NCBI GenBank assembly: GCA_007753915.1
Contig: CP036352.1
Span: forward strand, 2,170,001-2,234,000
Source of the DNA: Phycisphaerae bacterium RAS2
Lineage (GTDB): Bacteria > Planctomycetota > Phycisphaerae > UBA1845 > UTPLA1
Direction of reading: 5' to 3'
DNA length: 64,000 bases
Shown here piece by piece: positions 5,878-31,612 of the stretch (its first letter is position 1; every line of letters begins with the position of its first letter). The notes under the pieces are model-generated. The model did no database searches. It was not told the DNA's origin and worked only from the letters and a program-made list of their open reading frames with translations. Made by a program: the position numbers and the translations under genes.

Positions 5878-5882
5878 GACAC

Positions 5883-8727: not shown

Positions 8728-10227
8728 ATGGATTCGCCCATCACTGCCGCAATGCTCTACGATCTGGTTGCTTGTCCACATCGCGTGACAATGGATCTCT
8801 ACGGCAATCCATCCGAACGAGATCAGGTGAACCCTTTTGTCGAATTACTGTGGGAGAGGGGCTCACGCTATGAACGCGAGGTCATTGCGAAGCTGAAGGC
8901 GCCTTTCATCGACCTGCACGAAATCACTGGTGATGACAAGTCGCGCCTTACATTGGAGGCGATGAAGAAAGGCGAAGGTTTGATATATGGCGGGCGCATT
9001 CAGACTGAGATGCTGCTAGGCGAGCCTGATCTGCTTCGCAAGGAAGGTCACGCGTACATCGCGGGCGACATCAAGTCCGGCTCCGCTGAGGAAGGTCCGG
9101 AAGATGATTCAAAGCCAAAGATTCACTATGCAGTCCAACTCGGCCTTTACACCGATATCCTTGAACGCCAGGGTCTTTCGGCCGGTCGTCGCGCATTTGT
9201 GTGGGACATTCACGGCACAGAAGCGATTTACGATTTTTGTTCTTCGTACGGAAAGCGTAACCCGAGAACTCTCTGGGAGGACTACCAGGACGCACTTCAG
9301 GAAGCTACACAGATAGCACGCAACCGCCAAGCAACCCTTCCGGCATATGCCGGCGTCTGCAAGCTCTGTCACTGGTATTCAGCATGTGTGAAGCGACTAA
9401 GAGAAACGGACGACCTCACGATGATTCCGGAGCTGGGCCGTTCGAAGCGTGACGCAATGTACAGCGTCGTTCAGACTGTCTCGGCACTTGCCGCCGCAAA
9501 GACGAATATCATGATCAATGGCACCAAGACGGTCTTTCCCGGAATCGGCCCCGAGACCCTGCTCAAGTTCCAAGACCGCGCGAAGCTATTGTCCACAAAA
9601 AACGCGACGCCTTTCGCACGGGCGACAATCCAACTCCCACCAAATGGTTGTGAGCTTTTTTTTGATATCGAAGTGGACCCGATGCGCGACGTTTGCTACC
9701 TCCACGGTTTCGTCGAGCGCCGCAACGGTGATGTAGGAACGGAAAGATTCATATCCTATTTCGCGGAGAGCCCGACTGCTGAAGCCGAGAGGGACGCTTT
9801 CGCCAAGGCTGTAGCCTACATGACTGAATGCCGCCCGACAGCAATCTACTACTACTCCAAATACGAGCGCACAGCATACAGGAAGCTCCAAGCAAAGTAC
9901 CCTGATGTCTGTACTGCTGAGGCGATCGAGGCATTGTTCAATCCCTTGCATGCAGTGGATCTGTACAGTGACGTGGTAAAGAAGGCGACGGAATGGCCCA
10001 CGTGGGATTTTTCGATCAAGACCATTGCCAAATTCCTTGGCTTCTCCTGGCGTGACACCCATCCGTCAGGAGCGGCATCAATCGAGTGGTTCGACAAATG
10101 GGTGGCATCGGGCGACCCCGCGATAAGGCAGCGTATTCTTGATTACAATGAGGACGATTGCCGAGCGATGCGCGTACTACGCGATGCGCTTTGTAACCTA
10201 CCGATACGGCAAGGGGCCGCACAATGA
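8728..10227 (+). CDS. TM0106-type RecB-like nuclease with RNase H-like domain
   Basis: A 499-residue protein of the type annotated as TM0106 family RecB-like putative nuclease. The N-terminal half is a Cas4/RecB-like PD-(D/E)xK nuclease: Asp101 (GEPDLL), Asp114 and Lys116 (GDIKSG), then the QLGLY helix near 137-141. Cysteines around 210-221 (CKLCHWYSAC) together with Cys16 could bind an Fe-S cluster as in AddB/Cas4; this is inference. The C-terminal half has a DEDD-exonuclease-like RNase H fold (FFDIEVDP near 310, final YNEDDCRAM). The stop overlaps the next start as ATGA, so the SIR2 protein is translationally coupled. Phage-DNA processing in defence is likely but not proven. Confidence 0.82.
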   Translation: MDSPITAAMLYDLVACPHRVTMDLYGNPSERDQVNPFVELLWERGSRYEREVIAKLKAPFIDLHEITGDDKSRLTLEAMKKGEGLIYGGRIQTEMLLGEPDLLRKEGHAYIAGDIKSGSAEEGPEDDSKPKIHYAVQLGLYTDILERQGLSAGRRAFVWDIHGTEAIYDFCSSYGKRNPRTLWEDYQDALQEATQIARNRQATLPAYAGVCKLCHWYSACVKRLRETDDLTMIPELGRSKRDAMYSVVQTVSALAAAKTNIMINGTKTVFPGIGPETLLKFQDRAKLLSTKNATPFARATIQLPPNGCELFFDIEVDPMRDVCYLHGFVERRNGDVGTERFISYFAESPTAEAERDAFAKAVAYMTECRPTAIYYYSKYERTAYRKLQAKYPDVCTAEAIEALFNPLHAVDLYSDVVKKATEWPTWDFSIKTIAKFLGFSWRDTHPSGAASIEWFDKWVASGDPAIRQRILDYNEDDCRAMRVLRDALCNLPIRQGAAQ

Positions 10228-11450
10228 CAGACCAAGCACACGACGCACAGAAAGCGTTATCTGACTTGAGGGACCACCTTGCACGTCACGATAAGCCGAT
10301 CGCATTTTTCTTCGGAGCTGGCACGTCCTGTGCTGTCCTTGTGGAATCCTCCGAAGGCCAGAACAAGACTCAAGCACTGATTCCGGCCGTGGCTCAGCTT
10401 ACGAACTTGGCCAAGGAAGATGCCGTGAAACTCGGGGAAAAACACGCGAAAGCCTGGGGACTAATTGAGGCTCATTGCACCGAGAACAAACAACTAGCAA
10501 ACGTCGAAAACGTACTTTCGCGATTGCGAATGATGCTTAGCGCCGTCGGAAACGCGGATACGCTATCGGGGCTCAACAAGAGTGAGATCGGGGCTCTTGA
10601 AGAATCTGTGCGAAAAACCATCGCGCGTGTTGTTACTCCAGATCTAACGAAGATTCCAGGCGATTCCCCTCACAAGAAATTCGCCAAGTGGCTCATCAAA
10701 AGCTCCCGGCAAAAACCGATTGAAATATTCACAGTCAATTATGACGTGCTAATCGAGCATAGTCTCGAAGCGCTTCGAATACCGACATTCGACGGCTTTG
10801 TGGGCGGCTTTCGTCCCTTTTTTCATCCGGACAGCTTGCGCCGCCTAGAGGCCGCTCCTGGCGCGACCTGGATACGGCTCTGGAAGATGCATGGTTCCGT
10901 GACGTGGCGACGCATGGAGCAAGATGGACGATTCCGAGTCGTCCGCGGCGAACCAGATCCTGCCGGAGAAATGATCTATCCGTCATTTCAGAAATATGAT
11001 GAATCGCGGCAACAGCCGTACTCCGCCTTTACTGACCGCCTAAGCCGATTCCTTGAACAGGATGACGCGTTACTTATTGTCGCGGGCTTCAGCTTCGGCG
11101 ACGAACATATTAACAACCTCATTTTCGGCGCCTTGGAGAACAGGCCCCGGACGCACGTGTATGCCCTTCAATTTGATGAGACCCCTGAAGAATCGGATTT
11201 AGTTAAGCGCGCGTACCAGCGACCTAACATGATTGTTCTATGTCCGAGGACTGGAATCATTGGAGGCCGACGCGCGGCATGGACTCCGGTGGAAAGTCCG
11301 TCGTTTATGACCGATGTCTTTGAACTGATTAAGAAAGAGCCGGCCGAAGGCGCGGGGGCAACTCGGCAAGAGGAAGCAAAGTGCGGAGTCATGAAAATCG
11401 GAGACTTTGCGTCCTTCTGTGCCTTTCTTGAAGCGATGACGTCGGATTAG
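10224..11450 (+). CDS. SIR2-like NAD-hydrolysing effector
   Basis: A 408-residue protein with a SIR2 fold from near the N-terminus. Visible elements are the NAD loop GAGTS (31-35), VNYDVLIEHS (171-180), the catalytic His223 in KMHGSVTW, and GFSFGDEHIN (288-297). In phage defence such domains typically deplete NAD+ and stop growth of infected cells. The ATGA overlap with the nuclease gene and the 6-base gap to a HerA ATPase match the SIR2-HerA pairing known as the Nezha or Sir2-HerA system. The C-terminal 50 residues are less typical. SIR2 fold is near certain. The NADase role is by family analogy. Confidence 0.88.
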   Translation: MTDQAHDAQKALSDLRDHLARHDKPIAFFFGAGTSCAVLVESSEGQNKTQALIPAVAQLTNLAKEDAVKLGEKHAKAWGLIEAHCTENKQLANVENVLSRLRMMLSAVGNADTLSGLNKSEIGALEESVRKTIARVVTPDLTKIPGDSPHKKFAKWLIKSSRQKPIEIFTVNYDVLIEHSLEALRIPTFDGFVGGFRPFFHPDSLRRLEAAPGATWIRLWKMHGSVTWRRMEQDGRFRVVRGEPDPAGEMIYPSFQKYDESRQQPYSAFTDRLSRFLEQDDALLIVAGFSFGDEHINNLIFGALENRPRTHVYALQFDETPEESDLVKRAYQRPNMIVLCPRTGIIGGRRAAWTPVESPSFMTDVFELIKKEPAEGAGATRQEEAKCGVMKIGDFASFCAFLEAMTSD

Positions 11451-11456
11451 GTCGTT

Positions 11457-13319
11457 ATGCCCCTGACAGACCCAACATATATTGGCCAAGTGGCTTCCGT
11501 CACTGGTGCAATAGTCCGCGTACGTCTTCGTGAAGACATGCCCTCAACCCTAGTGATGATTGGCGGCGAATCCTATCGCGTCGGACAGATCGGCGGGTTC
11601 TTTCGCGTTCCCCTCGGCTACACCAACCTCTACGCCGTCTGTACGCAGATCGGGGCCGATGCGGCCCCTCCCAACAGCATTGAGCAACGGTTGGGCCCTG
11701 CACTTGAGAGCGAATCGCAGCTTCGCATGTCCGGGTATCGATGGATGACCGTGGTGTTATTTGGCGAGGGGCTTGGTACCGACTTCGAAAGGGGTGTCGG
11801 GCAGTACCCGACTGTCGGCGACGAAGTACATCTAGTTACCAACGACGACCTCAAAATTATTTACGGCTGGACCAAGGGCAAAAAGGGCACGATTTCAGTC
11901 GGTCGTATCGCGGCAACCTCCGGGATCTCCGCAGATGTTAGCGTGGCCGGGCTTGTCAGCCGGCATAGTGCAATCGTTGGCTCCACAGGTTCGGGCAAAT
12001 CTAATCTGGTTACGGTAATGATGGAAACAGTTTCCGATGGAAGCTTGCCGAATGCCCGCGCAATCGTTATTGATCCTCATGGCGAGTACGCGAGCGCTAT
12101 TGGTAGCAAGGCACGCGTGTTCCGTATTCGGCCGAACGAGGAGGCTGGGGAGAGGCCACTCTGGGTTCCATATTGGGCGCTTCCCTTTTCTGAGCTACAG
12201 CTACTCACGCTTGGCGGGCTCCAACCCAATCATGAGGCCGCGATTAGGGATCAGGTGCTAGATATGAAAGTTGCCGCGGCGCAGCGCCTTGCAACTCCGC
12301 CACCACCAGAGACCCTTACCGCGGACTCACCCGTACCATTCAGCATTAAGAAGCTATGGTATGAGTTGGACAAATTCGAGCGAATCACGTTTCCATCTTC
12401 GAATCCACAGACTGATGATACTGCGTATCCTCCTGACCAAGTTGGCGATCCAGCAGCGTTGCGGTCGGATCGTTATCCGGCGGCGAGTCCCTACAACCAA
12501 GCACCCTACAAGAATCAACGGAAGCGAAACATCGAACGCCACCTTGACCTCATGCGGAGTCGATTGAAGGACGGCAGGTTTTCTTTTCTGTTTTCTCCGG
12601 GCGGTGGTTATGAACCCAATCTGGATGGCGCAGTGCAAGCCGATTTGGATACGTTGGTTAGGGACTGGGTTGGACACGATAAGCCAATAACCATATTCGA
12701 CGTTTCGGGCCTGCCCTCCGAAGTGCTTCCCACCATCGTTGGCACCATGCTGCGGGTCGTTTACGACATGCTATTTTGGGCACAGGACCTCGCTATTGGC
12801 GGTCGCCAACAACCGCTGCTGGTCGTACTTGATGAGGCCCATCGCTTCGTTCCTGAAGGTTCTGACACCTCCGCCCACCGAACATTGTCCATGATTGCGA
12901 AGGAAGGCAGAAAATACGGCACTGGCCTCATGTTGGTGACACAACGGCCGTCCGAAATTGACAGCGCGGTTCTAAGTCAATGCGGCTCATTGATAGCTCT
13001 GCGGCTAACAAATTCGGCTGACCGCGCCAAAGTAGCAGCCGCTGTCCCCGATGACCTCGGCGGGCTTGTCGATCAGCTGCCTTCCCTTCGGACTGGTGAG
13101 GCAATCTTTCTTGGCGAGGCCATGCCAATCCCTTCGCGCGTACGTGTGCGAAAGGCGTTGCACAAGCCAGTTGGAGATGATCCGAAACTTCCGGATGTGT
13201 GGCAGACAACCCCTCGTCCTGACGCAGCCTCATATACTGAAGCACTTTCAAATTGGCGTGCTCAATCTACTTGCACAGACGATACAGATGACGAGACGGA
13301 GGACCAAAACAATGCCTGA
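11457..13319 (+). CDS. HerA-like hexameric DNA translocase ATPase
   Basis: A 620-residue HerA/FtsK-superfamily ATPase. An N-terminal beta-barrel (HAS-barrel-like, about 5-60) precedes Walker A GSTGSGKS (175-182) and Walker B LLVVLDEAHRF (454-464). The sensor segment VTQRPSEID and a C-terminal brace follow. HerA normally forms a hexameric ring that pumps duplex DNA and activates a partner nuclease. Here the coupled partners are the SIR2 protein and the RecB-like nuclease. The KTSC gene overlaps its 3' end by 8 bases, so at least four genes are tightly packed. The C-terminus is acidic (DDTDDETEDQ). Function within defence is inferred from gene order and known SIR2-HerA systems. Confidence 0.88.
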   Translation: MPLTDPTYIGQVASVTGAIVRVRLREDMPSTLVMIGGESYRVGQIGGFFRVPLGYTNLYAVCTQIGADAAPPNSIEQRLGPALESESQLRMSGYRWMTVVLFGEGLGTDFERGVGQYPTVGDEVHLVTNDDLKIIYGWTKGKKGTISVGRIAATSGISADVSVAGLVSRHSAIVGSTGSGKSNLVTVMMETVSDGSLPNARAIVIDPHGEYASAIGSKARVFRIRPNEEAGERPLWVPYWALPFSELQLLTLGGLQPNHEAAIRDQVLDMKVAAAQRLATPPPPETLTADSPVPFSIKKLWYELDKFERITFPSSNPQTDDTAYPPDQVGDPAALRSDRYPAASPYNQAPYKNQRKRNIERHLDLMRSRLKDGRFSFLFSPGGGYEPNLDGAVQADLDTLVRDWVGHDKPITIFDVSGLPSEVLPTIVGTMLRVVYDMLFWAQDLAIGGRQQPLLVVLDEAHRFVPEGSDTSAHRTLSMIAKEGRKYGTGLMLVTQRPSEIDSAVLSQCGSLIALRLTNSADRAKVAAAVPDDLGGLVDQLPSLRTGEAIFLGEAMPIPSRVRVRKALHKPVGDDPKLPDVWQTTPRPDAASYTEALSNWRAQSTCTDDTDDETEDQNNA

Positions 13320-17899: not shown

Positions 17900-19475
17900 A
17901 AAGAAAACCTCATGAGTCATTTCGGCCCAGGTCCTGCGCGTGGAACATCCACGCGGCAGCCCAGGCCGCTTAAACCACATCGCATTGCACTACCTCCTCG
18001 CTGCCGTCGCGCAGCCGGGCGCGCCGTCTGTATTCCAGATCGGCCCCCGCCCAATACATACGCGTAGCGCAGCAAAAACCTCCGGCGAATCCTGGATACA
18101 CCTCCAGTGTTCGCCGTCATTCCGCCATCAAAAGACGACTCACGTCCCCGTGAGACCTCTTTCGATCGCAGCATCGTCCTTCCCAGGAACCGGCCGGCGG
18201 GCAGGCGCAATTCGCCTGCCGCGCCGACCGCACGCTTCAAGATGAAAATGACCCGTCACCGCTTTCGTTGTCGTTTATCCCCGGCACCACCCGTAAGGAC
18301 ACCAACGGCGCACCACTGCCTTGCAGTGCCTCCGCTCCGCTCCCGCGGACTTCTACTTGCGGCACTCTCCCAGACTACGGCCTTTGAATCACCCGCCTGA
18401 CTTGGCGGACACCGGGCACCACCCCGGCAGCCACAGTCCTTCCCCGGTTATTGATAGTCGTTGCACAATCGGTCACGTCGGTAGGGCCGGTTCAGGCCCG
18501 GTCCGGCAGCGTATGTCCGAGGCTCCCGCCCCGGCATAGTTTCCATCCGCACAAGCGCGGACGATTTCGAGGTCCAGAATACAGAAGCTGACCCCTACCC
18601 TTCGCTGCGGGATATTCCCTGTTCGGCACCGTCTCCGATTGCACTGACCGGCAAGGGCTTGATGCCCCGTTCATCGTTGAGCTTTTCATGATCTGTCTTT
18701 GTTCGACAGAATCCCGAGTCTGAATCATGACCCGGTTCCGCGTGTCGCCACGCGGAAACTCCCGACGCCGGCAAACGTTGAACGAACCTGACGGGATTTG
18801 CACCCGAATTGCCTTTCGGCTTTGGTCCGGACCCCGCCTGGGGGATTACGCCGCGAGCGCGGCATCACCCCTTCGACCATCACGGCCCGCCTTGCGGCAG
18901 GTCTGTCCCGGTCGCCCGATTTCCAGTTGCACTATGGGATAGAACTACAGGATTGCTCCAACGAACTACTTCGCAGGGATTACTCTGTAGAGCCTCCCTC
19001 GAACCGGACGAGCCACTCTCGTGGCATCCGGCTCTACGGGTCGTGGGCCCTGACGGCTGGTGAGGCGCGTCCCCTTAGTCCCGATGGTGAGTCGGGATTT
19101 ACCGGGCGGCCCACGCCCATCTTAAAGCGTCAGATACGCGGTTTGCGTTCCTGACAGCCGCGGGATGGTGGTCCCGCTTGGGAACCACCATAGCGCGGTC
19201 TCGAGGTGCGAATCAAATGCCGTTCGGATGGCCCCCGTCGTGCCGGCCTATGCATGTCAGGCTGTTCGCCCGGCCACCTCGCAAAGATGGAGCGGGGCGG
19301 CGTCCGACCGCCAACCCAGGGGGGAGTTATGTTCGGCCGGAGCCTTTTCGGAATCCCGCCTTACAGTTTCCTAGCCCCGCCCCATCGTCAATCGCGCGAT
19401 GTCCATGTTCTCTGGCTCGCTCTGCCAGAGGGCGATCTCCCGCGGACCAAGAGTGCGGCCGACGCACGAAGCGCA
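17900..19475. other. Gene-poor, hairpin-rich region with a group II intron remnant
   Basis: No convincing protein gene lies here: the frames are short, overlap on both strands and look like random high-GC openings. The DNA is full of strong inverted repeats, for example CTCACG/CGTGAG near 18150, GCAGGCG/CGCCTGC near 18215, GCCGCG/CGCGGC near 18855 and GGTGGTCCC/GGGaACCACC near 19166-19188. One hairpin pair is recognisable as group II intron domains V and VI on the minus strand (18975-19033). The rest may be intron domain I-IV remnants or another structured RNA; I cannot fold it reliably by eye. Confidence 0.5.
18975..19033 (-). ncRNA. Group II intron domains V and VI (intron remnant or ORF-less intron)
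   Basis: Read on the minus strand, bases 19033-19000 form a 34-nt hairpin with the layout of intron domain V. The lower stem is GAGCCGGA with UCCGGUUC, a 2-nt CG bulge follows, and the upper stem GCCAC/GUGGC is capped by a GAGA (GNRA) tetraloop. The AGC triad is present. One U-U mismatch sits where U-A is usual. Immediately 3' a second hairpin (18997-18975) with GGGA/UCCC and CUCU/AGAG arms leaves unpaired adenines on its 3' side, as the branch-point domain VI should. No reverse transcriptase gene is present upstream, so mobility would need a protein in trans, or the intron is dead. Confidence 0.7.
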
Positions 19476-20078
19476 TTACGGTACGAGCTCGGGCCCCCCG
19501 TCCACGCGTCTGATGTAGAACGCAAGAAGTCCGTCCATATCAAAACTGGCGAAGTCGCGCTGCACATCCCAGGCGACGGCCATGATGGGAATCTGAAGTC
19601 CGGGATAGCGCGTGATCACGATTTTTTTGTTTCCGAACTGACTTGGCGGAGTCTGATCAAACAACGCCTGAAGGTCGTCGAGGAAGGCGGAGTCGCAATC
19701 CCCGCTGCAATCGTAGAGCACGACCACGTACCCGTGCTCCAGGTTATGCACCCACCGTTCCGGCCCGAGCGCATCTTCGTAGAATCCGGCTGGAACCGGC
19801 GCAACGCCCGCTGCGGAGTAATGCGGCCCCGACGCGGGAGGGTTCGTGCGATACGTAACGACCGTGCCGACGGGGACGTGGGTCGCGCCCTCATTGGGGA
19901 CACATCGGTCCCCGGAAGCGTCTGGCACACACGTGACGGTATCACAGGCACTCTGTGCCACGATCAAGAGGCCTATGGCACAAAGCGGCAAAGAGTTGAG
20001 CGACCGAACGAAACGCTCAGCCCTCGTCTTCCGGTTGTGGCGGATGACTTCTACTGATCCCATCCCTTCAAATAGCAT
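19476..20078 (-). CDS. DUF3105-like lipoprotein
   Basis: About 200 residues with a lipoprotein signal (LLIVAQSAC) after a basic N-terminus; an internal ATG (MGSVEV) may be the true start. The mature part carries a His-rich pattern typical of DUF3105: VPVGTVVTYRTNPPASGPHY, then ERWVHNLEHGYVVVLYDC and ITRYPGL. The paired HY/HNLEHG motifs suggest metal binding. It ends the minus-strand metal operon, 24 bases downstream of the putative selenoprotein. Function unknown; a periplasmic metal-handling role fits the neighbours. The N-terminal start is uncertain. Confidence 0.75.
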   Translation of the reverse strand: MLFEGMGSVEVIRHNRKTRAERFVRSLNSLPLCAIGLLIVAQSACDTVTCVPDASGDRCVPNEGATHVPVGTVVTYRTNPPASGPHYSAAGVAPVPAGFYEDALGPERWVHNLEHGYVVVLYDCSGDCDSAFLDDLQALFDQTPPSQFGNKKIVITRYPGLQIPIMAVAWDVQRDFASFDMDGLLAFYIRRVDGGPELVP

Positions 20079-20102: not shown

Positions 20103-20849
20103 TTACTCTTTTCGCCTATCAGTCGGCGCTTGAGGCAGAGCGGAAAGCGACCGCTTGAGTCGCTCAATCTGCCCGACCGTGAGAATGGACTCAGTGCGCT
20201 TGGCGACCACATCGGCAAACTGCCTGAAACGTCCCGACCAGTCAGTTTTGCCCGGATCCTTCGGATCTTCCGAAGCAGTCCGGTTGACAAGCCTGTCCCA
20301 TTCCTCCTCAGCAACCTCGGTGAGCTTTTCGGCTTTCGCTTTCTCGATCCGCTCTTCTTGAACGAACTCCGCCACGCGGCGCAAGGCAAGGGTGCGAAAC
20401 TCAATAGCAGATAGCTCTCCGACTCGCTCGGCCGCACGCCACTCTTCTTTGTCGAGCGCCCGCTTGACTTCTTTACCGGTCAACCGAACGGGCTTTCGCG
20501 TACCGACAGCTAGCACTTTCAGTAGCCGTCCGGCAACCTCTTCCCGATCTGCCGCAGAAGAGACTGTAGCCCGAATCAGGCGGCCGCTTCGGTTTGCGAA
20601 TGCTTTTTCGACGCCATCAACCTTTTCTAGTTGCGCCATCACGGGCGCAAGTCGGTGGCCTCAGCCGAGGCCCCGGACCGCACCTCAGGTGAATCCCTCG
20701 ACCTTGAACACGAGTTGTCGCTGGCCATCGGTCGTATTGTCATCCTCGCTCTCCGCTACAGTACCCGCACCAAAGGTTTGGGGATGAGAGCAACTTGCAA
20801 GGACGGGCAAGAGCACGGACAAGCAGGAGATAAAGTCACACCGCCGCAT
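20103..20849 (-). CDS. HMA-like lipoprotein with two in-frame UGA codons: candidate selenoprotein
   Basis: Read through two TGA codons (20687-20685 and 20663-20661), one frame gives a coherent 248-residue protein. A lipoprotein signal (LLPVLASC) leads into FKVEGFT-U-GAVRGLG-U-GHRLAPV, then an HMA-type beta-alpha-beta unit (LEKVDGVEKAF, GRLIRATVSS) and a C-terminal helical domain (VGELSAIEFRTLALRRV). Both UGAs fall where metal-binding Cys is expected. I recall this family as heavy-metal-associated (seleno)proteins. Hairpins of bacterial SECIS type follow each UGA. The ATG at 20849 has GGAG six bases upstream. If selenocysteine is not inserted, only a 54-residue fragment, or a protein from GTG 20642, could be made. 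The selenium machinery genes are not in the window. Confidence 0.78.
20631..20650 (-). promoter_or_regulatory. Putative bacterial SECIS hairpin after the second UGA
   Basis: On the minus strand a perfect 7-bp stem (TTGCGCC with GGCGCAA) closes a 6-base loop CGUGAU. The stem begins 10 bases after the UGA at 20663-20661, so the loop starts 17 bases after it. That lies within the usual bacterial SECIS range, and a G stands in the first two loop positions. SelB binding is inferred. Confidence 0.6.
20657..20672 (-). promoter_or_regulatory. Putative SECIS-like hairpin after the first UGA
   Basis: A perfect 6-bp stem (GGCCTC with GAGGCC) with loop GGCU begins 12 bases after the first UGA (20687-20685). 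Its 3' side contains the second UGA. Spacing fits a bacterial SECIS, but the loop is small, so support is weaker than for the second hairpin. Confidence 0.45.
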
Positions 20850-20906: not shown

Positions 20907-22121
20907 TCATTTCGTCGGCTCAACGAACGCGCCGCCATAGCCGGCCTTTTCCAGCGCGGCGAGGATCTCCTCACGCGGAACCGAACCGCGGGCTTCGATG
21001 CCCACGACCGCCTGTCCCCTGGGAAAGTCCACTTGCACGGCGAGGACGCCAGGCACACTTCGAATGGCCTTTTCGACATGGCCAGCACAACCTTCGCACG
21101 TCATACCCTCTACGCGGATCATCGCCCGCTGCATCTTGGCTGTGACCGCGCTCCCGTTGCCGGTTCCCATTAGCAATCCCACGTACTTGGGGAAGAAGAG
21201 AAAGGCGACCACCAGGACCGTCACAACCCACAGCATGACCTTATTCAAAGCCATCACGCCAAAGCGCCGCTTACCGCCTGGGGCACAACAGCCCTCAAAC
21301 TCTCTCGGCTGTCCGGCACAACAATCGTCCCCATCACCGCCATCCACTCGTGAGACTGGCCCGCCTGCGTGGCTCGGACGATACGTGAAGTAGAACGCTG
21401 CTCCCAGAAAAGCGAACGTGATCACGATGAAGGCCGGACGATACGCTTCGAGCGTCGAGGCAACGCCCGCGCCCGAGACGCCCACGGCCAGCAGCACTAG
21501 CGGCAGCCAGCAGCAACTGGAGGCCACGATGGCCGAGACCAACGTGCCGATCTTGGCGACCTTCTCGCTGGAACTTCCTGAGGACGGTGAAGGGCGAGGC
21601 AACCGAGCTTGTGGCTCAGTGATACCCAACTCCTGTGTGGCAGTTTTGATGCCCTTGGCCACGCTGCCCAGACAGCAGGCTCCCGACGGGTTCGTGATTT
21701 CGCAAGTGCAGCCGGGGTCCTCCATCTTGCGTCGGATATCCTCCAAGGCGTCGGAACGGCCCGTGGTGGCAAGCTCCTGCTTGATGCTCGCGACCGAATG
21801 CCCGAAACAGTAGCACAGCGGCCGGTCGCCGACGCGCTCCTTGACACCCACGGCTACCTTCAACTGGGACTTCGTAAAGGTGGTTCCGGTCTCCTCGGCG
21901 AAATACACCACGTCACATTCCGCTGATTCGCAGAATCGCCAGCCGGTATCCTGTGTGACCGGCTTGCAGCCTCCCTCGGACTCGGAACATGCGCATTGGG
22001 CGTCAGCCACCGCGTCGCGGTGCTCATCCTTAAGCAGCGAATGCAGGGTCAGCGCGCTGACCCGCTTGCCCTTCTTACCGCAGCGGGGACAAATCAGCCG
22101 TCTCTCGATGGTTGTTTGCAC
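20907..22121 (-). CDS. CopZ-like / MerT / MerP fusion, mercuric or heavy-metal transporter
   Basis: A 404-residue three-part protein. Residues 1-150 are Cys-rich with a zinc-ribbon start (ICPRCGKKGKRV) and later Cys motifs, resembling the N-terminal zinc-binding part of CopZ-type metallochaperones. Residues 190-320 form a MerT-like membrane unit with the vicinal pair SSCCWLPLVLL and three or four helices. Residues 335-404 are a MerP-type HMA domain with the canonical GMTCEGCAGHV. MerTP takes up Hg(II) for reduction. No merA reductase is seen here. It lies downstream of the DF protein and Cys-rich peptide, and 57 bases before the start of the selenoprotein candidate. Mercury specificity is inferred. 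Confidence 0.85.
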   Translation of the reverse strand: MQTTIERRLICPRCGKKGKRVSALTLHSLLKDEHRDAVADAQCACSESEGGCKPVTQDTGWRFCESAECDVVYFAEETGTTFTKSQLKVAVGVKERVGDRPLCYCFGHSVASIKQELATTGRSDALEDIRRKMEDPGCTCEITNPSGACCLGSVAKGIKTATQELGITEPQARLPRPSPSSGSSSEKVAKIGTLVSAIVASSCCWLPLVLLAVGVSGAGVASTLEAYRPAFIVITFAFLGAAFYFTYRPSHAGGPVSRVDGGDGDDCCAGQPREFEGCCAPGGKRRFGVMALNKVMLWVVTVLVVAFLFFPKYVGLLMGTGNGSAVTAKMQRAMIRVEGMTCEGCAGHVEKAIRSVPGVLAVQVDFPRGQAVVGIEARGSVPREEILAALEKAGYGGAFVEPTK

Positions 22122-22169: not shown

Positions 22170-22277
22170 TCAGCAGCCCGAGCAGGTCGGACAGCAGGCC
22201 ACCACGCAGCAGGTCAGCACGGCAAGAATCATCAATAGTGAGTGCAGGGTCGCGAGTGCTCGACTTGCACGCATCAT
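22170..22277 (-). CDS. 35-residue Cys-rich hydrophobic peptide
   Basis: The ATG at 22277 overlaps the stop of the DF-family gene (CCATGATG), so coupled translation is likely. The peptide has a basic start (MMRASRALATLH), a hydrophobic stretch (LLMILAVL) and six cysteines in the last 13 residues (TCCVVACCPTCSGC). It could be a membrane-anchored metal-binding peptide. Too short for a family match; support is the overlap, the operon position and the composition. Confidence 0.55.
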   Translation of the reverse strand: MMRASRALATLHSLLMILAVLTCCVVACCPTCSGC

Positions 22278-22717: not shown

Positions 22718-22751
22718 ATTGTAGACCTTGCACCTTGATTCAATGTCAAGG
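22718..22751 (-). promoter_or_regulatory. MerR-type promoter-operator with 20-bp spacer
   Basis: On the minus strand TTGACA (22749-22744) and TACAAT (22723-22718) are 20 bases apart, the over-long spacer that MerR activators correct. A dyad CCTTGA-N7-TCAAGG (22733-22751) covers the -35 element and the start of the spacer. It lies between the merR stop and the DF gene, so it should drive the metal operon when MerR binds its metal. Confidence 0.75.
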
Positions 22752-22763
22752 AGATTTCTTCCG

Positions 22764-23213
22764 TCATCCGCGCGCGGAGGAGGCGCGGCGTTTGCCGGAT
22801 ACTGCAGGCGACGCAACTCTAAGCGCGTCAAGGAGTTGGCAGCGTTTCGTGGACTTCGATCTGCGACACAAGGCAAGAGACTTGGTCAATACTGCATCGA
22901 CGTGTCGGAGGTCCTTCATCCGTTGGCGAACATCAGCCAGCCGTTGTTCGATAAGGCTTTGCACATCGGCACACGCTCCAACTTCGCCGTCATGAAAGCT
23001 CAGAAGCCTGTCGATGTCGTGAAGCGTAAAGCCCGTGGCCTGGGCGGCCCGGATGAACCGAAGCCGCTCTACACAATCTTTCCCGTAAAGGCGGTAGTTG
23101 CCCGCGCTTCGAGCGTCCGGAGATAAGAGGCCCCGCCGCTCGTAGAACCGAATCGTCGAGGTTCTGATGCCGGCGTCCGCCGCCAACTCGCCAATCGTTA
23201 ATTGATCAGGCAT
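22764..23213 (-). CDS. MerR-family metal-responsive regulator
   Basis: A 149-residue regulator from ATG 23213 (MPDQLTIGELA). The winged helix-turn-helix is clear (IGELAADAGIRTSTIRFYERRGLL, then NYRLYGKDCVERLRFI). A long dimerisation helix follows, with cysteines at ACADVQ, SLALCRR and KRCQLL that could bind metal. The pattern is closer to the Zn/Cd/Hg branch than to organic-ligand sensors. Its stop is 13 bases from the dyad of the MerR-type promoter, so regulator and operon point the same way. The exact metal cannot be read from the sequence. Confidence 0.88.
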   Translation of the reverse strand: MPDQLTIGELAADAGIRTSTIRFYERRGLLSPDARSAGNYRLYGKDCVERLRFIRAAQATGFTLHDIDRLLSFHDGEVGACADVQSLIEQRLADVRQRMKDLRHVDAVLTKSLALCRRSKSTKRCQLLDALRVASPAVSGKRRASSARG

Positions 23214-23309: not shown

Positions 23310-26300
23310 TCATGCTATCCCAATTGAGTTGCCGTTAGAGCATTCGTCTGATGTAGTGTCTCGGACCGCCCGGTGATGTTCAAGCACACGCGACACCGCC
23401 CAAGGGGCATCCTCCTGGAGCGCAAACCACCGCCGCTTATACCCTACGATCTCCTCCGACAGGCCGTAGCGGCGGAGTTCTTCGCGGTTCGCGGGCACGC
23501 CGTTGAGGACGAGTTCCACGACCTCGTCACCGGCAATCCGCGCCATCATCAGCCGCCAGCCATTGTCAAGCTCGATTATCGCCCCGCCGGCCAGCAGGTC
23601 AAGGATTTCGCTAGGTATCGCCTTGGCCAGTGGGGTGCCGATGCCGAGTCGCTGCTTGACGCCCGGCACATCTGACGGGCTCAGGTTCAAACCTACCAGG
23701 GCAGTGCCGTCCGCAAGAACGGCCCGAGCGATCTTCACGCTCTGGATTCCTGACGCGCCCATGACACGATCGTAGATGGGGAAGATGGCGCCGCTCAGAA
23801 TGTGAAACCGCTGGGCCTCCGTCGCCGGAGTCTTGCCGTATTCCGCATCCCACCAAGCGCTGGCGTCGTCGCGTTCCACCGGCTCGTACTTCTCGGCCAG
23901 CTCGCACCGCTCCAGGCCGCGACGCGGGCCTTTCACGCCCGTGAGCAGCACTTCGCCAGGTCGCGTGTCGTTGTGTGCCGACACGGCGTAGATTCGGCCG
24001 CTTCGCTTGTTTCGATAGAATCCCTCACCTGCGAAACTCCCGGCGGCTTCCGCGAACGTGTGGCGCAGCACGTCCACTTCGCCCTCCAATTCGTGCAGCG
24101 TCGTCCGAGCGCCGGAAGCCGTATCCACAAAGAGCGTTTGCGGCTCTGCCACACTTCGCAAGTCGCGGGCCTTTATCTCTTCCACGCCGAAGTCGAACGC
24201 TCCCGCTCGCTTCGCGGCCTCCACCGCCTCCACATAACGCTCATAGAAGAGTTCAAAGAATCGGTTCTGCTTCTCGACGTGGAGCACCATGATCCGGTTC
24301 AAGAATTGCTCGACGTTTCCGGAGTAGCTTTCCCGCACGGCCGTCTTTTCCTTGTTCAGCACACCCATTCGCTCCAGGTCCACCATGCCGATTCCAAAAG
24401 CCGCGTGCTCGTTTCGCTCGACCTGCCTGTAGAGCAGCGTGAGTGCGGCCTTGCCGTACTCGTCCGTCACGTCCTCCGGTCGAAACAGCTCGCCGGAGAG
24501 CGATTGCCGCTCACCCTTCGTCAACGCTCCGAGCGCCGCAAGCCGTTTCGACACGGCGTTGACCAGCCGCTTCTGTCCGGCCAGGTTAAGAAGCGCAAGC
24601 CGGATGATCGGCGCGCTCGTTTGATTCGAGCGATGGACTCGGCCAAACGCCTGCATTTGCTGGTCGGCGGACCACGAGAGCTGAAAAGCGTAGAACGCAC
24701 GCCGCTCCTGATTCTCTGCCGTCACATCCGCATGAACGCTGATGCCCGTTGCCCCTGCCCCGGAGAGAACGGCGAGCCGTTTTTGCCCATTCTGAAAGAG
24801 TCGGGTCTCGTACTCGTTCAGTTGCCGCCGATGAACGCCGTGCAGTTTTCGCCGGACGTATCGGCCATGCTCCCACCGATGCGTCCGACCGCTGATCTCG
24901 GAAACGTTTTCGACGCCGAAGTGAGCCACGAGCGCATCCATCGGGTTGTGCGGAAAGTCGAGGTCCGCCACCTTGTCCAGCAGTTCTTTTTGACGCCGAA
25001 GGTTCTCGCGGTTTATCTCGGGGTTCCCCGCCGCATCCGTGACGCGGACGCAAATCACGTTTCCGGTCACCGGATCGGTTTCCTCCCGGTACTGATAGAT
25101 CGGGAACTGCTTCTCGATGAGCTGGACGATCATCTCTCGTGGTGTCGCATCCAATTCGTTCAGCTCCAGGCCCTGTGCACGGGCGTCCCGCACCTTTCGG
25201 TCCGCTTGCGCTTCCCCTGTATTGAAGAGGCTCACGACGACGGAGCGGCCCGACGCGAGATCTTTTTCGATTTCCGGGATCACGTCCGGCAACGTGTAGG
25301 CCATCATGAGTTGAAGAAAGAACCGCTGCTGGGCGGAGTAGAACTGAGCGTAGCGGCCACCGTTTCGTTTTTGACAGGCGTTTTGTTCGCCGGCCTCGAA
25401 TGCGATGAGGAGTTCCGCCCAGAGGTCGGAAATCTCATCGTACTGCCGCTTTTCGGGTTCCGTGAGCCGGTGAAGGAGCGGTTCATACTCGACCGCACTT
25501 TCGGGAACGATGCTCCCGTCCACCCGCCGTGTCGGTCCGTAGCTGATCGTCCGCGACAGGTACGTCCCGACAGCCTTGAGGTCGCGGCAGAGCATCTCCA
25601 TCGCTGCCACTCCGCCCCGTTCCATCGCCACGAGGAAAGCCGGGAAATCTGCAAACGGTGCTCCCTCGCCCCAGAGGCCAAGCCGTTCGTACGGTGCCAT
25701 GTGCCGGGCTTCTGTCGCTCCGGTCGCACTGAAGTAGCGGACGCGGGCTCTGGGAAACATCCGCTGGAGCGCAATGCCCATGTTGCCTCGAAGCGTCCCC
25801 TCATCCAAAGTGGTCTTTCCCCCATGCGGGGATGTCGCCGCGTTTTTCATCAGATGAGCCTCGTCGAAGGCGATCGCGCCGACGAAGTCCGGTCCAAGCC
25901 AATCGGTGAGCTGCTTGAAGCGTTGCCGCTCCCCGTCGAAATCCGTCGCCAGCATTGTGTACGTCGTGAAGAGCACTCCGGAGTCGCCGAGGATGGGGGT
26001 TGTCGGTTTCGACTGTGCCTGGTGGATCAATCGAAGCGGAAGGCCGATAGCGCTTCGGTCACGCTCCGCGTCGGCGAAGAGTTGATGCGAGGCCGAAACG
26101 TGAATATGCTTCCGCCGGCCCCGTTCGAGTTGATCGTAGATGAAGGCATAGATTTCACGGCCCTTGCCAATCCCCGTGCCGTCGCCGTTCCAGTGACCTT
26201 TCCGGGCGCCATCTGGAAGAATCACCTCCGTCGCCTGCCCGGCGTAGATCACGTCTTCGAGCTGAATGTCCGAGACTCGACCCTCGACGATGAGGTCCCG

Positions 26301-27971
26301 AGGGAGATGGTGTCGATAGGTCACGTCGGGGGGCGCCACCGATGCCATCGCTGTCGATTCGACGACAGTTGCCGGATGCGGCTCACTGCCGCGAACGATC
26401 GCCTTTTGCACGCGATACGCGGCAAATACCGTCCCTTCTTCGATCTCGATTGATTGCCTGGCGACCGCGGTTTCGAGGTCGCCTACGCCATCCCCAGCCG
26501 GTCCAGCGTCGCGAGCAGCAGGTTTGCCGCCCAACGTCGCATCAATTCCGGTTCGGTCGGCATCGGCGGTCGTTCTCGTTCCAACTCCCGCGCCAGCATT
26601 TGCGTCAACATTTTCGGCTGCTCCGTCGTCAGCCGGTTCCACGTGTGCCACTGATCCGTTGTCACCGTCGTTTCTGATGTCGGCATGATGCCCCCGGCTC
26701 CATCCTCCAGAAGGCAGGTGATGAGTTCCACAACCGGATCGGCGACGGGTTCCAGCTCCCGATGGAACATCGCTCGCATCGTTGCCTTGGCTTCTTCCCT
26801 CACCGCGTTCGAGAATTCGCCCGCGGATGTCTTCCTGCGAGATCGCTTTGAGTCGTTCATACGCTTCCTCCAAAGAATGACCGCTTCCGGTGATGATCTC
26901 GGATTCACTCTCGGTCTTGCCGTCACGGTCAATGACAATAATCTGGTTGTCGAAGGTGGTTCCAAACTTGCCGTACGCTTTTCCATCAATGCCGACATTG
27001 GCCCGAACACGGTATCGCATTTCAATGTTCGACCACCACTCCCGAAACTTCGGCCGGTCCAGGGCCATGCCGCGCCCAACGACCGCAACGAGCCTTCCGC
27101 CGGGCTGAAGACGAAGAAGCGATTGTTCGACATGCCGGGCGCCAAATTCCGTGCTATGGGCGCGAACGCGCCCGCCCGTCGCCGAGAAGGGAGGGTTCAT
27201 CACGACTGCGTCGTAGAACTTTCCCGGCCAAAGGAGATTGTCGAGCCGCTCCGCGTCGAATGCTGTCGGAGCAAATCCTTGTAAGATGAGTAGTCTCAAG
27301 CGCCTTTCACTGATTTCATTGGTGTCCACTTCGGCGCCAGCAAGCCGCGCAAGGACAGCGATGTTTCCCGTGCCTGCACTTGGCTCAAGCACCGTCATCC
27401 CTTCGCACAATCCGCCGGCTTTCACTACAAGTAGGGCCTCGGCCGGCGGCGTGCTGAACTGCTGGAACTCGACTTGCGTCTCATCCCGACGTGTCTGTCG
27501 GGGCATTCGTGCTTGTAAGGCCTGTAGCGATTTGATGGACCCAGCAACATCGTCAAAGTCCAGGCCGAGTCGCTCGATGTACATATTCATCCCGGCTTCG
27601 GCTGCGTCATAAGCATCGCGGCCGTGCCCTGCGGCGTTTCCAAACACCTCGCGCGCCAGATTCTCGATGGCCGGGTTGTCGAACTTCTTACCGGGCTCCG
27701 TCTCAAGCAGCGCCGCAAATCGTTTGGCAAATTCAACGACACCTGCCCACTGATCGGCCTGACCTTCCCCCACCTGGGGAGACGGTCCTATCTCCGGTGA
27801 TGCCATCGCCGGCCCGGCAGCAACCGCCTCAGCCGTCGCCCCTGCTTCTACTTTTGGTTCGAACTCCAAGAGCAGTTGCCGGCCGAGGCGAGGCGCTGAA
27901 CTATCGGCTTGGTCCCGATGCCCAAACAACCTGCCATGCTTCGACTCGGACCCGCGTGAAAATCGGAACAC
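23310..27971 (-). CDS. Methyltransferase-like plus strawberry-notch-type helicase reading frame
   Basis: A 1553-codon open frame. Residues 165-390 form an adenine-methyltransferase-like domain (EPSAGTGN 196-203, NPPF 259-262). From about residue 540 onward it is a strawberry-notch-type SF2 ATPase: GDGTGIGKGRE (Walker A-like), FDEAHLMKN near 700, YFSATGATE, and the helicase C-terminal QAFGRVHRSNQ. These large proteins are typical of integrative elements. Residues about 385-530 have poor codon character, and a different frame looks coding there (26483-26860). The frame may therefore be two genes, or carry a frameshift. The GTG start follows GGAGGAAG closely. Confidence 0.75.
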   Translation of the reverse strand: MFRFSRGSESKHGRLFGHRDQADSSAPRLGRQLLLEFEPKVEAGATAEAVAAGPAMASPEIGPSPQVGEGQADQWAGVVEFAKRFAALLETEPGKKFDNPAIENLAREVFGNAAGHGRDAYDAAEAGMNMYIERLGLDFDDVAGSIKSLQALQARMPRQTRRDETQVEFQQFSTPPAEALLVVKAGGLCEGMTVLEPSAGTGNIAVLARLAGAEVDTNEISERRLRLLILQGFAPTAFDAERLDNLLWPGKFYDAVVMNPPFSATGGRVRAHSTEFGARHVEQSLLRLQPGGRLVAVVGRGMALDRPKFREWWSNIEMRYRVRANVGIDGKAYGKFGTTFDNQIIVIDRDGKTESESEIITGSGHSLEEAYERLKAISQEDIRGRILERGEGRSQGNDASDVPSGAGTRRRSGCGTHHLPSGGWSRGHHADIRNDGDNGSVAHVEPADDGAAENVDANAGAGVGTRTTADADRTGIDATLGGKPAARDAGPAGDGVGDLETAVARQSIEIEEGTVFAAYRVQKAIVRGSEPHPATVVESTAMASVAPPDVTYRHHLPRDLIVEGRVSDIQLEDVIYAGQATEVILPDGARKGHWNGDGTGIGKGREIYAFIYDQLERGRRKHIHVSASHQLFADAERDRSAIGLPLRLIHQAQSKPTTPILGDSGVLFTTYTMLATDFDGERQRFKQLTDWLGPDFVGAIAFDEAHLMKNAATSPHGGKTTLDEGTLRGNMGIALQRMFPRARVRYFSATGATEARHMAPYERLGLWGEGAPFADFPAFLVAMERGGVAAMEMLCRDLKAVGTYLSRTISYGPTRRVDGSIVPESAVEYEPLLHRLTEPEKRQYDEISDLWAELLIAFEAGEQNACQKRNGGRYAQFYSAQQRFFLQLMMAYTLPDVIPEIEKDLASGRSVVVSLFNTGEAQADRKVRDARAQGLELNELDATPREMIVQLIEKQFPIYQYREETDPVTGNVICVRVTDAAGNPEINRENLRRQKELLDKVADLDFPHNPMDALVAHFGVENVSEISGRTHRWEHGRYVRRKLHGVHRRQLNEYETRLFQNGQKRLAVLSGAGATGISVHADVTAENQERRAFYAFQLSWSADQQMQAFGRVHRSNQTSAPIIRLALLNLAGQKRLVNAVSKRLAALGALTKGERQSLSGELFRPEDVTDEYGKAALTLLYRQVERNEHAAFGIGMVDLERMGVLNKEKTAVRESYSGNVEQFLNRIMVLHVEKQNRFFELFYERYVEAVEAAKRAGAFDFGVEEIKARDLRSVAEPQTLFVDTASGARTTLHELEGEVDVLRHTFAEAAGSFAGEGFYRNKRSGRIYAVSAHNDTRPGEVLLTGVKGPRRGLERCELAEKYEPVERDDASAWWDAEYGKTPATEAQRFHILSGAIFPIYDRVMGASGIQSVKIARAVLADGTALVGLNLSPSDVPGVKQRLGIGTPLAKAIPSEILDLLAGGAIIELDNGWRLMMARIAGDEVVELVLNGVPANREELRRYGLSEEIVGYKRRWFALQEDAPWAVSRVLEHHRAVRDTTSDECSNGNSIGIA
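26483..26860 (-). CDS. Nested out-of-frame gene (125 aa), unknown
   Basis: ATG at 26860 stands 6 bases after GGAGG. The 125-residue product (MNDSKRSRRKTSAGEF at the start, LLLATLDRLGMA at the end) is protein-like and helical. Counting codons by eye, third positions are mostly G or C here (about 70 percent) against roughly half in the long frame over the same DNA. It lies between the methyltransferase and helicase domains. It may be an independent gene, or the end of the methyltransferase after a +1 shift near 26830. No function known. Confidence 0.6.
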   Translation of the reverse strand: MNDSKRSRRKTSAGEFSNAVREEAKATMRAMFHRELEPVADPVVELITCLLEDGAGGIMPTSETTVTTDQWHTWNRLTTEQPKMLTQMLARELERERPPMPTEPELMRRWAANLLLATLDRLGMA

Positions 27972-29995: not shown

Positions 29996-31612
29996 ATGAA
30001 GCTCATCGATCGAGAACGAGTGGACGGAACGCAGGTGACCATCGGTCGCCGCATCCACTATGAGAACGGCAAGCAACGCATCGGACGGCGATTCGCTGCG
30101 GAGTATCGAAACGTCGAAGGCGAGCAGGTCTGCGAAACGCTACGCACGTCGAACAAGGCTCAGGCTCGCCGGCTTGCGTTGGAGATTCAGCAGCGAGTTG
30201 AAAACGGGACCGACCGCCAGCCGGAGCCGATGATCGACATCGAAACGATGGCCGATCGATACTTCGAGTCGGTGAAGAACAAGGACGTGGCTCCAAAGAC
30301 CATCGTCAAATACGAGGAGAATCTCTCCAAGCTCAAGAAGTATGCGAGTGAGGTCGGCATCACCCTCGCCCGTCGCTTCTCGGCGGATGACCTCTTCGCC
30401 TTCCGCAAATGGCTCATCGACCAGGACTACGCCCCGAAGACCATCGACGGCATCCTCGTCCTCACCAAGCAGGCGTTCAAATGGGCGTGGCGGCAGACCC
30501 TCACCCGAGACTACCGCTTGGCCGCGGTGTCGCTCCCCAAAGCGAAGGCCAGTCCACAGCCGTGCTTCACGACGGAGCAGGTCGAGTTGCTCCTCAAGAC
30601 CACAGTCGGCGAGGATCGGCTCGCGTTTTCGATGATGGCCTACGCCGGCCTCCGAATCGGCGAGGTTGAGCAGCTTCGCTGGGAGGACATCCGCCATCGA
30701 GACGGCAAGCCGACAATGTTCCACGTCCGCCGCGGCGGCTCACGCGGCACAACCAAGGACAAAGACGAGCGATTCGTCCCGGTTCACCCCCGAATCGCTG
30801 ATTACCTGGACGAGCCGAAGAAGTCCGGTCAGGTCTTCACGGCAATTCGAGCCCGAGACCTGTTAATGCGGCTCAAGGTGTTGTGCAAGACGTGCGGATT
30901 CGAGAACCCCGACTCGTTCAAACTCCATTCGTTCCGCCACCACTTCGCGAGCCTGTGTGCGAACCACCACGTCGCGTATCGAAAGGCCCTCGCATGGCTC
31001 GGCCACTCGTCGTCGGAGATGCTCGACTTGTATTACCACCTCCACGACGATGACAGTCAGCAGGCGATGCTCGCACTCGCCGGTATGAGCGCGGCGACGC
31101 ACGACACGGCGAAATCACCTGAAAACAACGGTAACTCGACTGCCCTCGCGGTCGCTCCTGAAAATCGTTTTGAGGGCAGTTTGAGGGCAGTCGGGCAGTC
31201 AACAATCGAGAAACTCTTGCAACTCAGGGAGTTTCAAGAGCTTGTAAACTGCCTGCAAATTGAATCGGAGAGGGAGGGATTCGAACCCCCGCAGCAGTTG
31301 CCCGCTGACCGCATTTCGAATGCGGCTCCTTCAGCCACTCGGACACCTCTCCAGGACGCCAAGCCTGTCAGCCCGGCGCGACAGGGAATCGTAAGAAACT
31401 CATCGCCGCGCGGCAAGCCGACCTTGCGCGCGGCGGGATGGACGCGTTTCCGCTATCATTTTCCAGTGGAGGGTCGTCAGAAGCCACTTGCGGCTTCGTC
31501 GCGTTGCCTTCGGGCATCGTGGCGGCCGTCGGTGGGGAAGACGTACCGCGAAGGGCAGCGGCCGGGATTTTCTCCCATCCGATCATGCCCTTTGTTTTTG
31601 CGCAGGCGGTGA
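29996..31612 (+). CDS. Tyrosine integrase of the island, frame runs through tRNA-Ser
   Basis: Start ATG 29996 follows AGGAGAG. Residues 80-170 are a SAM-like core-binding domain and 190-365 the catalytic domain. Catalytic residues are Arg220 (GLRIGE), a Lys near 254, His311 and Arg314 (HSFR), His337 (GHSS) and Tyr346/347. From about residue 424 the frame reads antisense across the tRNA-Ser gene (SEREGFEPPQQ) and on into chromosomal DNA, giving a 538-residue frame. The last 110 or so codons are therefore host sequence fused by integration, not part of the original enzyme. It likely inserts the island into the 3' end of tRNA-Ser. Confidence 0.9.
   Translation: MKLIDRERVDGTQVTIGRRIHYENGKQRIGRRFAAEYRNVEGEQVCETLRTSNKAQARRLALEIQQRVENGTDRQPEPMIDIETMADRYFESVKNKDVAPKTIVKYEENLSKLKKYASEVGITLARRFSADDLFAFRKWLIDQDYAPKTIDGILVLTKQAFKWAWRQTLTRDYRLAAVSLPKAKASPQPCFTTEQVELLLKTTVGEDRLAFSMMAYAGLRIGEVEQLRWEDIRHRDGKPTMFHVRRGGSRGTTKDKDERFVPVHPRIADYLDEPKKSGQVFTAIRARDLLMRLKVLCKTCGFENPDSFKLHSFRHHFASLCANHHVAYRKALAWLGHSSSEMLDLYYHLHDDDSQQAMLALAGMSAATHDTAKSPENNGNSTALAVAPENRFEGSLRAVGQSTIEKLLQLREFQELVNCLQIESEREGFEPPQQLPADRISNAAPSATRTPLQDAKPVSPARQGIVRNSSPRGKPTLRAAGWTRFRYHFPVEGRQKPLAASSRCLRASWRPSVGKTYREGQRPGFSPIRSCPLFLRRR
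31266..31289. other. Probable island attachment site (attR) in the tRNA-Ser 3' end
   Basis: The T arm and acceptor 3' strand of tRNA-Ser lie at the island side and next to the integrase gene, the classic site where integration rebuilds a tRNA. The exact crossover cannot be seen because the matching copy at the other island end was not found in this window. Confidence 0.45.
31266..31352 (-). tRNA. tRNA-Ser (CGA anticodon)
   Basis: Minus-strand cloverleaf: acceptor GGAGAGG paired with CCTCTCC, anticodon stem-loop CCGCA-TTCGAAA-TGCGG with anticodon CGA, a long variable arm (CAGCGGGCAACTGCTG) as in class II tRNAs, and T arm GGGGG-TTCGAAT-CCCTC. About 87 bases, no encoded CCA. The island borders its 3' end, and the integrase frame crosses it antisense. 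The gene looks complete and functional. Confidence 0.93.

Follow-up and report, generated by a model that had tools for sequence, protein, structure and literature searches.

Two in-frame UGA codons in a mercury-type operon of Phycisphaerae bacterium RAS2 point to a metal-binding selenoprotein family

Introduction

Is a bacterial reading frame that is broken twice by TGA a ruined gene, or does it encode a protein with two selenocysteine (Sec) residues? The question is raised by a locus in the 4.32-Mb single-contig genome of Phycisphaerae bacterium RAS2 (Planctomycetota). We analysed a 64,000-nucleotide stretch of this genome, termed the window (contig CP036352.1, positions 2,170,001 to 2,234,000); coordinates below are window positions. 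A first-pass annotation, made from the sequence without database searches, had proposed a selenoprotein candidate with two UGA codons here, in a mercury-type operon.

In all probability the interrupted gene yields a metal-binding protein of full length, with two Sec residues. Judged from sequence, its double-Sec design, recurring in distant bacteria, looks like a missed protein family. Our best reading is a new family of two-Sec, soft-metal-binding proteins with tandem overlapping SECIS elements.

The interrupted gene

The gene (20849..20103, minus strand; no strand was named in the first-pass annotation) was delimited by reading its frame, which is interrupted solely by two TGA codons and terminates at TAA (20103-20105). 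Read through, it gives 248 residues, with U55 at UGA1 (20685..20687, minus strand) and U63 at UGA2 (20661..20663, minus strand). The two in-frame TGA codons reported earlier are indeed present, at a distance of eight codons (24 nt). The start codon, ATG at 20849, is preceded by GGAG. The sequence reads at its N-terminus as a signal peptide (20790..20849, minus strand) with the lipobox VLASC and Cys20, bearing out the lipoprotein signal proposed ahead of the TGA codons; in the protein alignment most Planctomycetota sequences likewise show a lipobox-type Cys. Further on come VFKVEGFT-U-GAVRGLG-U-GHRLAPVMAQLEKVDGV and then a helical region. Standard start rules yield only the fragment that the first-pass annotation foresaw, an ORF after UGA2 that opens at GTG 20642, within the loop of hairpin 2 (see below); inspection of the sequence upstream of this GTG showed no ribosome-binding site.

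The product had been described as coherent on either side of the TGA codons. In agreement, pN/pS is below 1 both before UGA1 and after the motif in 13 of 13 member pairs, hand-picked among close relatives; the stretch before UGA1 is just 12-16 codons in some pairs, and pN/pS there (up to 0.92) is rough. In all 13 pairs the 20 motif codons also have lower pS than the post-motif region (0.49 versus 0.83 between the window gene and its relative L032; the smallest gap, between L032 and L057, is 0.73 versus 0.77).

Relatives

Relatives, found at 21-41% identity, come from Planctomycetota, Myxococcota and one Chloroflexi MAG. The window protein used as query detected none in genome contigs, viral contigs or plasmids, and none in 100 other related genomes. 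In 392 genomes of the phylum it gave matches in nine (its own included): the gene itself and five others, at 27-30% identity, have exactly two TGA codons inside each, and three weak matches have none. A DNA pattern with TGA, TGC or TGT allowed at both sites found 28 stretches in genome contigs. Reading the flanking protein translation separated these into 22 members and six chance matches, the latter dropped before counting. Among the named hosts are Anaeromyxobacter oryzae, A. oryzisoli, A. soli, A. terrae, strain PSR-1 and Planctomycetota MAGs. The codons are TGA/TGA in 20 of the 22 members, TGA/TGT in one (L038, a Myxococcales MAG) and TGC/TGA in one (L041, the Chloroflexi MAG); L042 is a duplicate of L040 within one genome. 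Across 23 aligned members, codon 55 is TGA in 22 and TGC in one, and codon 63 is TGA in 22 and TGT in one. Away from the Sec positions the pattern tolerated little variation, and a Cys/Cys form whose loop differs would escape it.

A hidden Markov model (HMM) was prepared from the 22 members, with Cys in place of Sec and stops read through; because it has Cys at the Sec columns, Cys forms should have scored better. Its genome counts are lower bounds, as scoring was confined to the best few candidates in each genome (7 of 176, for instance). In Myxococcota it gave at least 20 matches in at least 17 of 195 genomes, 11 of the 17 already known from the pattern search. Nineteen matches have two TGA codons; one is partial (model positions 89-203) and does not reach the motif region. 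The genomes of L038 and L044, Myxococcota by their loci, are absent from these matches, being either outside the 195 or missed. In the phylum of the window organism at least 10 of 392 genomes matched: six full-length matches with two TGA codons each (the window gene included), L065 and three weak ones. L065 is homologous in its C-terminal region, and its metal-loop region has neither a Sec nor a Cys motif.

There are 30 distinct motif sequences (window included), of which 28 are U/U, one U/C and one C/U; no Cys/Cys form was found among them. Homologues thus show the in-frame UGA either kept or swapped with Cys, the pattern by which we tested for a selenoprotein, and Sec or Cys stands at both sites throughout the set. 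Because the same double TGA recurs in independent genomes, sequencing error, a doubt raised in the first-pass annotation, is very unlikely. As far as sequence comparison can tell, divergent relatives with TGA at both same codons are the strongest evidence against chance.

Invariant in a 22-row alignment are both Sec/Cys columns, V58, G60, L61, G62, G64, A68, P69, V70 and E150; G62 is Ala in four later Myxococcota sequences (L085, L086, L089 and L090). Two genomes with the main form have a second, diverged copy as well, L089 and L090, in which GLAUG stands for GLGUG. In the tree, which is deep and resolved only in part, the window gene groups with L057 and L032. L055, which contains N, and the duplicate L042 were omitted from protein alignment A2; L055 and L057 were omitted from A6.

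Selenocysteine machinery

The window genome encodes selA (508.6 bits) with selB beside it (297.8 bits), a tRNA-Sec (71 bits; gathering score 47) and selD (372 bits), itself interrupted by an in-frame TGA. The check suggested by the first-pass annotation thus comes out in favour of a bacterial selenoprotein: selA, selB, selC and selD are all encoded and all over cut-off.

Among 21 genomes with members from the DNA pattern search, 17 have selA over cut-off. The four others, hosts of L045, L038, L047 and L057, are all MAGs; selB passes its cut-off in the L045 host, and neither selA nor selB does so in the hosts of L038, L047 and L057, with a 174-bit partial selB match for L038. Since selA is over cut-off in 239 of 392 genomes of the phylum, its co-occurrence there with the two-Sec gene is uninformative.

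Hairpins behind the UGA codons

A perfect hairpin had been claimed to follow each TGA at 10-12 bases, and this proved accurate. SECIS-like hairpin 1 (GGCCUC GGCU GAGGCC; 20657..20672, minus strand) has a 6-bp stem that starts 12 nt past UGA1 and an apical loop, GGCU, 18 nt past UGA1. It overlaps UGA2, whose bases supply the end of the loop and two positions of the stem. SECIS-like hairpin 2 (UUGCGCC CGUGAU GGCGCAA; 20631..20650, minus strand) has a 7-bp stem starting 10 nt past UGA2 and a loop, CGUGAU, 17 nt past UGA2. Each UGA of the window gene is therefore followed by a hairpin of SECIS type. The hairpins were assessed by resampling, pair counting and a hairpin finder.

In 1000 codon resamplings that kept the protein, folding window S1 stood at -16.7 against a mean of -6.0 kcal/mol (p 0.004), and S2 at -11.1 against -4.7 kcal/mol (p 0.016). 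Dinucleotide shuffling of the window gene gave weaker results, z -2.75 for hairpin 1 and z -0.95 for hairpin 2; the codon-aware control matters because hairpin 2 is unremarkable under the plain shuffle. Codon resampling gave p <0.05 in 13 of 23 members for hairpin 1 and in 16 of 23 for hairpin 2. The corresponding Fisher p values, 7e-12 and 1e-14, combine related, non-independent members and so are not probabilities of independent events.

For UGA2, a simple hairpin finder placed the best loop at a distance of 17 nt in 29 of the 30 sequences; for UGA1 it did so at 18 nt in 22, and in the other eight the best hairpin lay elsewhere or was missing. Counting pairs across members, hairpin 2 has three that changed on both sides (such as GC to AU in L057), with 5 of 500 shuffles as high, and hairpin 1 has none; the percentage of cells paired was no higher than in shuffles (66/500). 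Hairpin 2 is mismatched in L032. The two members with one Cys codon give divided testimony: in L041 (Cys then UGA) hairpin 1 is weak (p 0.36), which fits a role at UGA1, whereas in L038 (UGA then Cys) it is weak against expectation (E -4.5, p 0.82), although UGA1 is kept.

A further counter-indication is that in RNAalifold consensus folding UGA1 preferably pairs with CCUC in the stem of hairpin 1, which would be a competing or switching structure. As UGAGG, common to both codons, can pair with the same CCUC, a ribosome at UGA1 may free the first SECIS. Separately, we considered and rejected an origin of the Sec pair by a 24-nt tandem duplication; the units match at 10-17 of 24 bases, which is suggestive only, since composition and shared residues favour identity.

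Predicted fold

A model of the whole protein, built with 22 sequences, reached pLDDT 85.7. Residues 41-124 (20478..20729, minus strand) form a heavy-metal-associated (HMA)-like, that is ferredoxin-like, domain that holds the UX7U loop, as judged from the model and from structure and profile comparison. The beta-alpha-beta-beta-alpha-beta order of the HMA fold is present in the predicted model. Over about these residues HMA domains match at full or near-full length: ATP7B with Z 9.0 (72 residues, rmsd 2.3), PacS 8.5, CopZ 8.3 and MerP (1osd) 7.7 (71 residues, rmsd 2.5); Z values of 8-9 are barely above the structure tool's background (7-8) for models with no clear match. The best Foldseek E was 0.015, and the single HMA domains 1fvq, 6a71, 1osd and 2xmw matched with probability 1.00 and E about 0.03-0.07. 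By hhalign, the match to six HMA domains, which came from the window, L032, L035 and L045, reached 95% (E 2.2e-8).

The HMA-like character noticed in the first-pass annotation thus stands on the model and the profile comparison, and not on Pfam: a scan of the window protein gave no PF00403 match, only a weak Resolvase match (E 0.015), and L032 scored 22.6 against PF00403, below the gathering score of 24.8. PHROGs likewise gave no match for the window protein.

The usual HMA metal loop is CxxC. The window protein has no such motif, and UX7U takes its place. That the TGA codons occupy the positions of metal-binding cysteines is upheld by hhalign, which sets the two Sec on the two CxxC Cys with an insert between them, and only in part by phmmer, which against CopZ puts just U63, the second Sec, on the first CxxC Cys (E 0.88).

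The rest of the protein, residues 125-236 (20142..20477, minus strand), is a helical domain in the model, with no confident structural match. Folded alone (pLDDT 86.6) it gave a best Foldseek E of 1.5 and a best Z of 7.8, which has little meaning for a helical bundle.

Operon and neighbouring genes

The two-Sec gene lies in a row of genes on the minus strand. At its head is a gene for a MerR-family regulator (22764..23213, minus strand) whose best solved relative is the mercuric-operon regulator 5crl (E 5.6e-26); three Cys align with Cys of 5crl, and the score of 119 bits is under the equivalog cut-off of 150.85. A promoter/operator-like site (22718..22749, minus strand) consists of TTGACA, a 20-nt spacer with ACATTG-N10-CAAGGT, and TACAAT; we take the spacer of 20 nt to be MerR-promoter-like. 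A consensus promoter scan, which allowed only spacers of 16-18, called no promoter at 22718..22749. There follow a Cys form (TDYALSCRMYG) of the DF-family (seleno)protein NF049942 (22274..22609, minus strand; 112.3 bits, cut-off 70), a 34-residue Cys-rich ORF, MRASRALATLHSLLMILAVLTCCVVACCPTCSGC (22170-22274, minus strand), that overlaps the DF stop codon and has no NCBIfam match, and a gene whose family profile matches mark it as a CopZ-N-terminal / MerT / HMA fusion (20907..22121, minus strand). The two-Sec gene begins 57 bp after the fusion gene, and a DUF3105 gene (19476..20078, minus strand) lies 24 bp downstream of it.

A MerR-type regulator, MerT and HMA parts, our test for a mer operon, are thus all present, and to that extent the description as a mercury-type operon is justified. 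For mercury itself the locus is only suggestive, because the window genome has no MerA over cut-off (best 319.2 versus 454.45). The protein behind that best match was set aside as MerA, since it falls below the cut-off and reads as dihydrolipoamide-dehydrogenase-like.

Neighbours at other loci, each 8 kb or shorter, were judged by eye from the output of a rough ORF finder, and a motif scan of neighbours covered 13 of 23 loci, all from outside Anaeromyxobacter. In L034 (6606-7613, plus strand) and L023 (1111-2103, plus strand) one frame with three TGA codons fuses a Sec-form DF to the two-Sec domain. HMA-thioredoxin lipoproteins with two in-frame TGA codons occur near three members: with UxxU in L032 (2632-3354, minus strand), about 20 bp upstream of the family gene, and with UxxxU in L045 (1535-2269, plus strand) and L035 (near 1703, minus strand), within a few kb of it. 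L035 also has a CopZ-MerT-HMA set resembling that of the window, and L038 has MerT and HMA genes. The Anaeromyxobacter proteins have no signal peptide by the chosen start, and no metal genes adjoining their genes were seen by eye in the rough ORF lists. With no MerA over cut-off in the window genome and no metal genes seen beside the Anaeromyxobacter gene, both the identity of the metal and its hand-over to a transporter are putative.

Comparison with known families

The two-Sec protein has every feature by which a bacterial selenoprotein can be recognised computationally. What is known is that HMA-type metal-binding selenoproteins exist; what is new is the UX7U variant. The closest known type is the UxxU metal-binding (seleno)protein NF041115, which is also HMA-type with two Sec, in a UxxU motif according to a review table (PMC13188914). 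The window protein differs from it in the UX7U spacing, an extra helical domain and its lipoprotein nature, and scores far from the cut-off of 95 (15.6 bits; L032 17.4, L057 14.6). MerP and the HMA family PF00403 share the predicted fold, unlike the window protein in having CxxC. Because the cut-off and motif tests failed, we file the protein under neither PF00403 nor NF041115. For the eight members tested, no model of NCBIfam release 20.0 or Pfam reaches its cut-off.

The DF family NF049942 (the hypothetical protein DF in deep-Sep, PMC12013277) is an operon neighbour and, in L034 and L023, a fusion partner, but the two-Sec protein misses its model and is a different domain. The MerT/CopZ fusion-like selenoprotein NF045683 and the SAO (Sec-assisted organometallic) clusters likewise place Sec in metal-transport operons, whereas the CopZ-MerT-HMA fusion of the window contains Cys and no Sec, with a score of 64.8 (cut-off 375); the matches of the window neighbours scanned include no SAO model. 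TsoB (NF045694) has two Sec, in UxxxxU, but is a rhodanese/DsbD fusion, another domain (PMC13188914, review table).

The UX7U HMA-like family is absent from the 119 families and subfamilies in Table 1 of that 2026 review, several of which carry no motif there, so that an overlap may escape comparison by motif (PMC13188914). A table of the Global Ocean Sampling survey names a selenoprotein 'Mercuric transport protein MerP', with no motif; this protein, compared by name alone, may belong to the two-Sec family (PMC2398784). A 2006 list of 11 selenoproteins of Anaeromyxobacter dehalogenans, as far as the available part of the source extends, names none of this kind, and that strain may lack the gene (PMC1794560). 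For the GLGUG motif no related report was found in the open-access literature searched.

The family adds to the catalogue of selenoproteins, and methods that rely on Cys homologues would miss it, since no Cys/Cys form was found. Because the gene occurs in named Anaeromyxobacter strains, its product can be sought by proteomics. Two questions become testable: why selection keeps a pair of selenols rather than of thiols in a metal-binding loop, and by what means a single ribosome reads two UGA codons spaced by 24 nt, the second of them lying inside the recoding hairpin of the first.

Proposed function and alternatives

We hold it highly likely that the gene encodes a 248-residue selenoprotein in which both UGA codons, each with its own hairpin, specify Sec, and which acts as an HMA-like lipoprotein capturing a soft metal for a transporter. 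Computation shows the conserved read-through, the Sec machinery, the hairpins, the predicted fold and the gene order, with metal-type neighbours in the window and at several Planctomycetota loci; the presence of selenium in the protein, the binding of a metal, its identity and its passage to MerT are inferred. SelB with Sec-tRNA would decode both UGA codons, each directed by its own downstream hairpin, that of UGA1 containing UGA2. In the predicted domain the CxxC loop would be replaced by the longer U-[GA]-x-V-x-G-L-[GA]-U-G-x3-A-P-V, and two selenols on this loop could therefore clamp a soft metal ion. The gene is probably co-transcribed with those for the CopZ-MerT-HMA transporter and the DF-family protein under the MerR-type switch. 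Outside the inner membrane the lipoprotein would most likely capture a soft thiophilic metal, Hg(II) or one like it; the bound metal may be mercury. In the window organism the captured metal would be handed to the MerT-type transporter, and the DF and thioredoxin-type partners may serve to maintain the selenols in reduced form. We give even chances to a further proposal, that the family is an almost obligate diselenol metal binder in which selection keeps the Sec pair, with tandem overlapping SECIS elements and UGA2 within the first.

The same two residues might instead form a diselenide/diselenol couple for peroxide or disulfide reduction, with metal handling secondary. Many known selenoproteins are oxidoreductases (PMC13188914), and the selenoprotein candidates beside the L032, L035 and L045 genes are HMA-thioredoxin fusions. 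Yet the Sec domain is predicted to fold like HMA rather than thioredoxin, U-x7-U is not a CxxC-like redox motif, and genes of MerR and MerT type belong to the window operon, so that we regard a redox role as improbable. Near-absence of Cys replacement would also suit a protein that stores or carries selenium rather than binding a toxic metal. Selenoprotein P of animals is such a store and carrier. Against this stand the small number of Sec, just two, their fixed places in a loop that hardly varies, the metal-operon context, and the lack of any selenium-metabolism family among the window neighbours scanned; a selenium carrier is very unlikely.

It is harder still to credit that the real gene is the ORF from GTG 20642, with decayed sequence upstream and TGA codons that are ordinary stops or errors. 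Such an ORF exists, and three member-bearing MAGs lack both selA and selB over cut-off, but the recurrence of TGA at both sites in 28 of 30 distinct sequences and the constraint upstream of UGA1 in every pair tested speak against decay, and the supposed start sits in a hairpin loop with no visible ribosome-binding site. Next to no weight goes to TGA being read as another amino acid or through general suppression, for which no support was found: TGA is a stop elsewhere in the window (as in the DF gene, 22276-22274), Cys replaces TGA once at each position, and the Sec machinery is encoded. The metal-capturing two-Sec lipoprotein accordingly remains our preferred reading.

Surrounding region

Upstream of the operon lies a gene for a large Strawberry-notch-type helicase (23310-27971, minus strand), with a tRNA-Ser gene nearby (31265-31353, minus strand). 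These two genes, together with the absence of a two-Sec relative from the 100 related genomes, suggest that the operon region is an acquired island. Just past the DUF3105 gene is a group II intron RNA match (18934-19036, minus strand); at gathering scores Rfam reports only tRNA and group II intron in the window. Farther off (10224-13319 with 2773-10227, both plus strand), a SIR2-like gene followed by a HerA-type ATPase gene adjoins genes for a ResIII helicase, a DNA methylase and nucleases, and this region looks like a defence island.
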